64,000 nucleotides of DNA from Salinicola tamaricis (GTDB taxonomy: Bacteria > Pseudomonadota > Gammaproteobacteria > Pseudomonadales > Halomonadaceae), in assembly GCF_003006155.1 (NCBI RefSeq), contig NZ_CP023559.1, forward strand, positions 4,154,001-4,218,000. Reading direction: 5' to 3'. Positions 55,040-59,806 of this stretch are shown in pieces. Below the pieces are notes generated by a model that did no database searches, was not told where the DNA came from, and worked only from the letters and a program-made list of their open reading frames with translations. Position 1 is the first letter of the stretch. Every line of letters begins with the position of its first letter. Made by a program: the position numbers and the translations under genes.

Positions 55040-57776
<2,737 letters not shown>

Positions 57777-57855
57777 GATGGAGTTCCTGCGTCATTCATG
57801 GGCGCCTCCGCGGCCTTCGGGCCGGCGGTAGCGGCGCTGCGACAAGCGATGAAAG

Positions 57856-58197
57856 TCAGGCAGGAAGTGGCGGACCGCGGCGGGAGAAGGCGTCGTGCGC
57901 CAGGCGCCGCACCGCAACCAGAGCCGGCAGCACACCGACCAGGGTCGGCAATGCCAGCCGCGGCGGCTGCGGATGCGTGGTCGGTGCACGGGCGACACGG
58001 CGGGACTCGGCGCGGATCTCCTCCGGCGCCATCAGGTAGACCTGGGCCAGACGCTCAGCCAGGCGCAGCGCCTCGGCCTGCACCAGTCCGGCTGGTAGCA
58101 GGCAACCCACCAGCACGCTGGCCAGCCACCAGTGCGCCCGCTGGCGCGGTCGCCAGCGAGCGCCCGTGTGGCCGGAATGCGAATGGGCCGATGTCAT
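57856..58197 (-). CDS. Small secreted protein in the SecM position upstream of secA
   Basis: 113 residues. It has GC-rich third codon positions like its neighbours and a convincing signal peptide (HWWLASVLVGCLLPAGLVQA, cut before EALRL), so it is probably a real exported protein. It lies immediately upstream of secA on the same strand, in the place of secM in enterics, with dciA divergent. The mature part is short, Pro/Arg-rich and ends AFSRRGPPLPA. SecM has an arrest motif ending RAGP; the C-terminus here is reminiscent but not the same. A 5-bp hairpin (57811-57824) lies between its stop and secA. A frame error near the end cannot be excluded. SecM-like function is inference. Confidence 0.55.
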   Translation of the reverse strand: MTSAHSHSGHTGARWRPRQRAHWWLASVLVGCLLPAGLVQAEALRLAERLAQVYLMAPEEIRAESRRVARAPTTHPQPPRLALPTLVGVLPALVAVRRLAHDAFSRRGPPLPA

Positions 58198-58259
58198 GCT
58201 GTCGACGAACTCCGCGTCGTGATAGGTTTGGGGGAACTTTCCCCACTGCGTGCAAGCCG

Positions 58260-58748
58260 ATGAGTATAAAGGCTAAGCGTTTTCGAGCCCAGTCCGTTTC
58301 CCATCTGCTCGGCCAGCCCAGCGGCCTCGGCGACGTGGTGCGCATGGCCACGCTGATCGACCGCGCCCAGCGCCATCTGCGCCGCCAGTTGCCAGCGGAC
58401 GTGGCTGAGCACGTGTTCGTCGGCGGCTACCGCGACGGCGTCCTCACCTTGATCACCGATCGCGCCGCCTGGCTCACCTGGCTGCGCTACGAGCAGCCGC
58501 GCCTGCTCAAGCTGCTGCATCAGCTACCGGGCTTCGAGGCGGTGATGAAGCTGTCGCTCAAGGTACGCCCGGTGCGCCCGGTCAAGGTCGCCCCGCGCCA
58601 GGTCCGCCATCTGACCCCGGCCGGCGCCAACGCACTGACGCAATGCGCGGCGGGTATGGAAGAGTCGCCGCTGCGGCGCGCGCTCACCCGCCTCGCCTCC
58701 CACGCCGCGCCCGCGGATTCCGAAGACGGCAACGACAGCTCGCGTTAG
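58260..58748 (+). CDS. dciA: DUF721 family protein DciA
   Basis: 162-residue DciA/DUF721 protein, the ancestral loader of replicative helicase DnaB. Start ATG 58260 (MSIKAKRFRAQSVSHLLG); the frame is open further upstream but that part overlaps the opposite-strand gene and has no similarity. The conserved helical-strand block is HVFVGGYRDGVLTLITDRA then WLTWLRYEQPRLLKLLHQLP. A basic tail (VKVAPRQVRHLTPAG) follows. In relatives it often sits between lpxC and secA, as here. Confidence 0.86.
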   Translation: MSIKAKRFRAQSVSHLLGQPSGLGDVVRMATLIDRAQRHLRRQLPADVAEHVFVGGYRDGVLTLITDRAAWLTWLRYEQPRLLKLLHQLPGFEAVMKLSLKVRPVRPVKVAPRQVRHLTPAGANALTQCAAGMEESPLRRALTRLASHAAPADSEDGNDSSR

Positions 58749-58810
58749 ACCAGCAGAGATCGCCCTCTCGAGCAACGAGTGAGCTCGACCACCCAGCACC
58801 ATTCCCGAAA

Positions 58811-58845
58811 ACGAAGACGCCGACCCATTGGGTCGGCGTCTTCGT
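58811..58845. terminator. Bidirectional terminator between dciA and lpxC
   Basis: A perfect 16-bp inverted repeat with a 3-base loop (ACGAAGACGCCGACCC/GGGTCGGCGTCTTCGT) between convergent genes. Confidence 0.88.
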
Positions 58846-58895
58846 GGATCGTGGCCGCGCTGTTGTCTGCGGCGACGATCGAAACAGTGTTGTCG

Positions 58896-59806
58896 TCAGG
58901 CCATCGCCGGGGCCGCGTAGGAGATCGGCGCCGGCTGGGCGGCCTCCTCGAAGGTCACGATCTCGAAGGCTTCCGGATGCGCCAGCAGCTCGCGACACAG
59001 CTGATTGTTGAGGCCGTGGCCAGACTTGTAGCCGCGGAACTCACCGATCAGGCTGTAGCCCAGCTGGTAGAGATCGCCGATGGCGTCGAGCATCTTGTGC
59101 TTGACGAACTCGTCCTCGTAGCGCAGGCCGTCCTGGTTCACGATGCGATAGTCGTCGACCACGATAGCGTTGTCGAGACTGCCGCCAAGGGCCAGATTCT
59201 GCGAGCGCAGGAATTCGAGATCACGCATGAAGCCGAAGGTACGCGCCCGCGACACTTCCTTGACGAAGGAGGTCGTGGAGAAATCGACGCTGGCGGTCTG
59301 CTTCTGCTGGTCGAACACCGGGTGGTCGAAATCGATCGCGAAGCTCACCTTGAAGCCGTTGTGCGGCAGGAAGGTGGCCTGCTTACCGTCGTCGCTGACC
59401 GTCACCTCACGCTTGATGCGGATGAACTTCTTGGGCGCAGCTTGCTCGGCGATACCGGCAGACTGGATCAGGAATACGAACGGGCCGGCGCTGCCATCCA
59501 TGATCGGCACTTCGGCGGCGCTCAGCTCGACATAGGCGTTATCGATACCGAGACCGGCAAACGCCGACATCAGATGCTCGACCGTGGCCACCTTGACGCC
59601 ATCCCGCGACAGCGCGTACACAGTTTGGTGTCGGTGACACTCTGGGCGTCGGCGGGAATCTGCACGACAGGGTCGAGATCGGTGCGCACGAACACGATGC
59701 CCGTATTGGGCGCCGCGGGACGCAGCGTCAGATACACTTTCTCTCCGGAGTGGAGGCCCACGCCCGTGGCGCGGATCGTGTTCTGCAACGTTCGTTGTTT
59801 GATCAT
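58896..59806 (-). CDS. lpxC: UDP-3-O-acyl-N-acetylglucosamine deacetylase LpxC (one frame break)
   Basis: Zinc enzyme of the committed lipid A step. ATG 59806 ([23 protein letters not shown]). The frame breaks near 59620, and the rest continues in another frame: [18 protein letters not shown] (first zinc His), [30 protein letters not shown] (zinc His and Asp) and [12 protein letters not shown] (catalytic His). One added base joins them into a protein of about 303 residues. It is a target of FtsH/LapB control; lapA and lapB are also in this window. Confidence 0.94.

Follow-up and report, generated by a model that had tools for sequence, protein, structure and literature searches.

Arrest peptides that report on protein export have been described in several bacterial groups. 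The RQH family, published in 2024, comprises uORFs of secA and secDF with RAPP-like ends (PMC10987492, here and below as far as the accessible part of that paper goes). In all members of this family, the third residue of the motif occupies the P-site. The tested member of the uA_RQH_Pseudomonadales group, which carries R109GPP, arrests the ribosomes of both E. coli and B. subtilis (fAP>0.9), and an arrest-dependent stem-loop at the Shine-Dalgarno (SD) sequence has been shown for uDF_RQH_Enterobacterales, at secDF2 (PMC10987492). Experiments have established RGPP as a core that causes arrest (PMC12992588; PMC10987492). According to the accessible text of PMC12992588, RGPP as a rule gives the strongest arrest in the sequence contexts that were tried, shares with RAPP the rank of most versatile core, and is under-represented more strongly than any other tetrapeptide in 10 major groups of bacteria. 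ApdP and ApdA are arrest peptides with the core RAPP, and peptides of this kind are reported to have no overall sequence similarity (PMC10987492). Here, we analysed by computation a 64,000-nucleotide stretch of the Salinicola tamaricis genome, hereafter the window, in which a small conserved gene with an invariant C-terminal core lies before secA and has codons that pair with the secA SD above expectation. The evidence supports a secretion monitor that is SecM-like in function, has no detectable homology to SecM and falls in the RAPP-like class. The features of the locus, in coordinates of the window, are listed below.

58260..58748, (+) strand: dciA (PF05258), divergent and upstream of the leader; Pfam match, found in 80/80 loci.
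57856..58197, (-) strand: leader gene, a putative secretion monitor of 113 aa; ORF, orthologue matches and alignment.
58084..58131, (-) strand: hydrophobic core of the predicted N-terminal export signal or anchor, WWLASVLVGCLLPAGL, residues 23-38; sequence and alignments.
57997..58029, (-) strand: second conserved block, APEEIRAESRR, residues 57-67; alignments, 73/80 loci fitting AP..[IM]R.
57868..57879, (-) strand: putative arrest core R107-G108-P109-P110; alignments.
57871-57873, (-) strand: predicted P-site codon, P109; by analogy with toeprints in the accessible part of PMC10987492.
57860..57866, (-) strand: anti-SD TTCCTGC, within the Leu-Pro-Ala codons of the tail; predicted to lie under the stalled ribosome.
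57777..57855, (-) strand: leader-secA spacer, 79 nt, with an internal G+C-rich hairpin; alignment and predicted fold.
57784..57790, (-) strand: secA SD region GCAGGAA, 7 nt complementary to the anti-SD; sequence and fold.
57462..57776, (-) strand: first open piece of secA, a gene that runs on in pieces to about 55040; ORFs and alignment.

The leader ORF has an ATG start and a TGA stop. Its product begins with MTSAHSHSG and has the C-terminus HDAFSRRGPPLPA, and the ATG of secA follows on the same strand, 79 nt 3' of the end of the ORF. An earlier note on this DNA had described a short gene directly upstream of secA on the shared strand, ending in AFSRRGPPLPA and separated from secA by a hairpin; the position and the C-terminus are borne out by the sequence and the hairpin is present in the predicted fold. 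The N-terminal signal of that note is likewise readable, as an Arg-rich start followed by the 16-residue hydrophobic run. The signal of the window's protein is predicted, being judged by eye from the sequence, and hydropathy was computed for the orthologues only; on these grounds the leader has an N-terminal secretion signal or transmembrane segment, as do the uA_RQH peptides. The hydrophobic run contains C-[LF]-[LWF]-P in 80/80 loci. The segment Leu-Val-Gly-Cys32, encoded at 58102-58113 (-), includes a Cys that is invariant in 80/80 loci and conforms to the strict lipobox pattern in 78/80, so that lipoprotein processing of the leader is possible. SecM of E. coli is not known to be processed in this way. 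Searched against Pfam and NCBIfam, the leader ORF matched no family at E<=1.

The reading frame of the leader is sound although secA is broken in the assembly, because two other genomes (G004 and G005) encode a 100% identical protein; the alignment to G005 has 0 indels inside the leader ORF. Against G005, secA has seven indels of 1-2 bases, all between 56878 and 57726, and lpxC has one, at 59616. The ORFs of secA, lpxC and ftsZ are split in the window, and we take most of these breaks to be assembly errors of the window's genome, which is a single contig of 4,276,240 bases and 93.25% complete. Beyond dciA lie genes that we take, from their ORF translations, to be lpxC, ftsZ, ftsA and ftsQ. dciA and lpxC converge, and a perfect 17-nt inverted repeat between their ends, at 58811-58845, is a likely two-way terminator. 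An antisense protein at 57798-58748 (+) was rejected, since this frame is dciA with an upstream extension and dciA proper starts at 58260. The sequence TTTATACTCA[TC] at 58260-58270 (-) overlaps the start codon of dciA and is conserved in 80/81 loci. Within it lies an ATA codon for an Ile of dciA, a codon that should be uncommon at so high a G+C content; the sequence is possibly the -10 element of a leader-secA promoter. A scan of 57700-58900 gave 0 matches to sigma-70 promoters, no Rfam family matched 57400-58500 at E<=1, and the search for plasmid copies gave no match.

To describe conservation, the best 80 of 177 relatives from a scan of genome contigs were kept, and all counts over 80 loci refer to these. 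They belong to Salinicola, Chromohalobacter, Billgrantia, Litchfieldella, Onishia, Modicisalibacter, Aidingimonas, Vreelandella and Halomonas, with one locus labelled only Gammaproteobacteria bacterium MFB021. In every one of these Halomonadaceae-type loci, secA lies 3' of the leader and dciA lies divergently upstream of it; the leader-secA gap ranges from 38 to 107 nt. The core R[GA]PP is present in 80/80 loci, as RGPP in 79 and RAPP in 1. The column entropy is zero for the Arg and both Pro residues and 0.1 bit for the Gly. The eight columns before the core are also constrained (0.29-1.47 bits), with an Asp five positions before the core in 77/80 loci and an Arg preceding this Asp in 76/80. 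Columns -37 to -9 and +4 to +8, at 2.66-3.68 bits, are hypervariable. The check put forward in the earlier note, whether the C-terminus is the best conserved part of the protein, thus speaks for its reading. The tail after the core measures 2-15 aa in the 79 RGPP loci.

The single RAPP among the 80 occurs in locus L088, whose clade in the tree (six rows, 97*) otherwise consists of five RGPP members. A frameshift was rejected as its origin; the RAPP is taken as real because the neighbouring frame, read by eye, shows no RGPP. RAPP is also found in G022/L200, which stands elsewhere in the drawn tree, and two exchanges between RGPP and RAPP would follow from that tree, whose placement of L200, on a long branch, is unsure. 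The second conserved block reads APEAIRAESRR across the orthologue set. It precedes the predicted P-site residue by 46-53 residues in the 73 fitting loci, through a linker that is hypervariable in sequence and steady in length, and sits about where the nascent chain would leave the ribosome. With the signal end taken as Cys+8, the distance from the signal to the P-site residue is 69-76 aa in the 80 loci, with a median of 71. This spacing resembles that of the short SecM class, for which the median is also 71 (PMC10987492).

Several features of the RQH uORFs of secA are found in the leader: a small unannotated ORF directly before secA on the same strand (80/80 loci), a conserved C-terminal RAPP-like sequence among homologues (R[GA]PP in 80/80) and more than 30 residues between the signal and the conserved end (69-76). 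Among RQH peptides the leader is most like uA_RQH_Pseudomonadales, also a secA uORF with an N-terminal localisation signal and a C-terminal RGPP (PMC10987492). Arg at position 109, the number given for the tested member, is possible in 8/80 of our loci. In our survey of the regions upstream of secA, RGPP or RAPP uORFs were found in 10/12 loci of the same family and in 0/64 loci of other families of the order. Halomonadaceae belong to the Pseudomonadales of GTDB. Because of this, and because Halomonadaceae is the only surveyed family with such a uORF, the leader very probably belongs to the published group. The string 'Halomona' is absent from the main text of PMC10987492, PMC12992588 and PMC7897499, as far as the accessible parts go. 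A literature search found no publication joining arrest peptide, secA, SecM and Halomonas, and a search on SecM, translation arrest and Halomonadaceae gave no Halomonadaceae paper among the matches listed. ApdP and ApdA have the same type of four-residue core as the leader, and their RAPP is present in two Halomonadaceae leaders, L088 and L200. Unlike the Halomonadaceae leader, ApdP is from Alphaproteobacteria, where it accompanies secDF, and ApdA is from Actinobacteriota (accessible part of the literature cited). The earlier note had suggested a class different from SecM, should the gene be an arrest sensor; this class is not new, being the RAPP-like (RQH) class published in 2024.

By analogy with the published peptides, translation of the leader very probably stalls close to its C-terminal end; ribosome stalling at RGPP, and the placing of the third motif residue in the P-site, would carry over from work on other peptides. 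Alternatively, the leader could be no more than a small lipoprotein or other secreted protein, with a conserved C-terminus that acts outside the ribosome. The invariant Cys in its lipobox-like setting and the conservation of the second block are what such a protein might have. However, the fixed C-terminal residues are a known arrest core in which RAPP can replace RGPP, and the leader codons are tied to the secA SD as described below, so that we hold this alternative to be highly improbable.

The leader and E. coli SecM are alike in that both are exported, lie before secA and have their arrest site, in the leader a predicted one, near the C-terminus. In both, moreover, the predicted partner of the secA SD is RNA that the stalled ribosome would cover. 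The core of SecM is RAGP with a long upstream motif, while that of the leader is RGPP. Furthermore, E. coli has lpxC, secM and secA side by side on the same strand, whereas in the window the leader and secA are split from lpxC by the divergent dciA and the terminator-like repeat. The earlier note had found no match to the E. coli SecM motif, and our searches agree: in addition to the empty Pfam and NCBIfam searches, hhalign of the leader against E. coli SecM, used as a single sequence and not a profile, gave a probability of 0.1%, and FxxxxWIxxxxGIRAGP is absent from the C-terminus. The leader thus has no homology to SecM (PF06558) by these measures. A PF06558 search of 274 genomes of the class gave 0 matches, and its control matched 1/14 named genomes (E. 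coli). The E. coli SecM protein likewise had 0 matches in the 274 genomes, an empty answer that is uninformative with that search.

Orthologues of the leader at E<=1e-5 are found in 35/37 genomes of the family (own included) and in 0/21 genomes of other families of the order, among which the best match has E 0.013. The earlier note had named absence of the gene from close relatives as an argument against its reading; the gene is present in 18/18 genomes of the genus (own included), with E<=1.1e-34. Of the 19 matches from a profile search across 390 genomes of the order, 18 are in Halomonadaceae. The remaining one was rejected as chance (E 6.5e-4, covering positions 25-60 only, inside a 406-codon frame). 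The upstream survey considered ORFs of at least 35 codons ending within 500 nt of secA, with the motif sought in the last 30 residues. The 12 loci of the same family gave 9 RGPP ends, 1 RAPP end and 2 M23 peptidases (G019 and G020). None of the 64 loci of other families had an RGPP, RAPP, RAGP or RAPG end, a count that includes three loci with no ORF to judge (L151, L166, with only 195 bases, and L181). A 35-codon frame ending in RSPP, at L156, was taken as chance. In 42/64 of the other-family loci, read by eye from the printed ends, the leader's slot holds an M23 peptidase end. At L203 and L204, in the 2/37 genomes of the same family that lack the leader, an M23 peptidase likewise stands in its place; in the SecA tree, G019 and G020 fall with the outgroup, on long branches. 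Derivation of the leader from the M23 peptidase of the slot was rejected, as 10 such proteins gave an hhalign probability of 0.4% and a best hmmsearch E of 0.15.

These data bear on whether the leader is a SecM orthologue that has diverged past sequence recognition. The same slot before secA, the similar anatomy and a comparable pairing of the SD in E. coli would fit such descent. Against it, the leader matches no SecM model, its similarity to the single SecM sequence is at the 0.1% level and the long SecM motif is missing. The lack of arrest uORFs in the 64 other-family loci, together with the 42 M23 ends, points to a separate gain. We consider divergence from SecM very unlikely, and we infer that the leader was gained within Halomonadaceae.

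The leader-secA RNA was folded thermodynamically, and the stems discussed here are long-range. The leading edge of the ribosome was taken as 16 nt on from the P-site, giving a footprint bin of -20 to +16; in Salinicola, with the first core Pro in the P-site, this edge lies about at the stop codon. In the window, the secA SD is predicted to pair with the footprint with a probability of 0.92, and its unpaired probability is 0.01 in the free RNA and 0.58 when the RNA behind the ribosome edge is removed. Over the 33/81 loci with an SD defined as AGGA or AGGT, the mean unpaired probability is 0.17 in free RNA and 0.43 with the RNA removed. The later tests took as SD the last GG core before the start codon, a definition that covers 81/81 loci. 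With this definition, pairing of the SD core with the footprint averages 0.510 for the real sequences against 0.152 (sd 0.027) for synonymous shuffles, 0/60 of which reach the real value, and 41/81 loci exceed 0.5 where 11.4 are expected. Shared ancestry was handled only by thinning the set by hand to 31 of the 81 loci; in these the pairing is 0.566 against 0.127, and the three neighbouring 36-nt bins are at 0.05 or below, so that the excess is confined to the footprint bin. Overall, the SD of the 81 loci is only somewhat less unpaired than in the shuffles (0.274 against 0.377). As a positive control, E. coli secM-secA gave 0.73 in the footprint bin (SD core GAG). As a negative control, leaderless M23-secA loci gave 0.110 against 0.100 for the 22 scored of 41, the other 19/41 being left unscored as they have no GG core; those with a gap of at most 130 nt (n=7) gave 0.130 against 0.104.

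The partner of the SD differs between loci. By position, it lies in the Val-Leu codons in 17, the RGPP codons in 21 and the tail codons in 10 of the 81 loci. In 12/81 the SD pairs mainly upstream of the footprint, and in 21/81 no partner region reaches at least 0.5. Within Salinicola (n=17), the partner is in the tail in 9, upstream of the footprint in 7 and absent in 1, and the prediction is therefore mixed even within this genus. In S. endophyticus (L031), the leader is identical to that of the window, the footprint probability is 0.31 and the SD pairs mainly upstream. The SD core of secA is AGGAA in 15/17 Salinicola, AGGAT in 8/8 Chromohalobacter and GGAC in 45/56 others. Sequestration of the secA SD by RNA under the stalled ribosome, as in SecM, is thus predicted in the window and, on average, across the set, and not at every locus; the reading of the earlier note, a possible SecM-like export sensor, is supported to this extent. 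SD unmasking is not reported for uA_RQH_Pseudomonadales in the accessible part of PMC10987492, whereas it is predicted for leader-secA here.

It could be argued that the peptide arrests while secA is controlled in another way, by translational coupling or mRNA protection, the SD pairing being incidental. The 33/81 loci in which the SD has no partner within the footprint at a probability of at least 0.5 would agree with this, as would the variable position of the partner between genera. On the other hand, the real codons pair with the SD far above synonymous recodings, and the excess is limited to the footprint bin and missing from the scored leaderless secA loci. We regard incidental pairing as unlikely. 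We are confident instead of the reading in which the Sec-targeted leader stalls at RGPP, export releases the stall and the stall unmasks the secA SD.

In this mechanism, the substrate that is monitored would be the leader itself, whose short nascent chain, targeted to Sec, would halt the ribosome making it at the point where the P-site holds the first Pro of R107-G-P-P and the A-site the second. Under active export, the pull of the translocon on the chain would release the stall, and the ribosome would run off. The 3' RNA of the leader (TTCCTGC) could then fold onto the secA SD (GCAGGAA), keeping translation of secA low. When export is slow, the ribosome would stay and cover the anti-SD RNA, the SD would be freed and secA would be translated. 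The jam on the leader thus probably switches secA on when protein export falters; for Salinicola, we infer the stalling, its release by export and the induction of secA. The position of the anti-SD shifts between genera, among the Val-Leu, RGPP and tail codons, while the peptide core stays fixed, and the SD core of secA changes along with it. For the further proposal that the arrest-region codons serve two purposes, encoding the stalling peptide and providing the secA anti-SD, so that the ribosome stops on the very RNA that it has to mask, we see the chances as evenly balanced.

The kind of sensor is itself already known, having been described in 2024, and the leader would be a further member of it, with a matching predicted RNA switch. 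Relative to the accessible part of PMC10987492, what is new is the predicted SD pairing with the codons of the arrest site for secA of the uA_RQH_Pseudomonadales group. Export-sensing arrest peptides gain a well-defined orthologue set in one family of halophiles, in which a natural exchange between RGPP and RAPP is visible, and the analysis offers a codon-level RNA test for the coupling of stalling and SD unmasking. For Halomonadaceae, the findings suggest that a secretion monitor was gained at a slot that holds an M23 peptidase end in 42/64 of the surveyed loci of other families.
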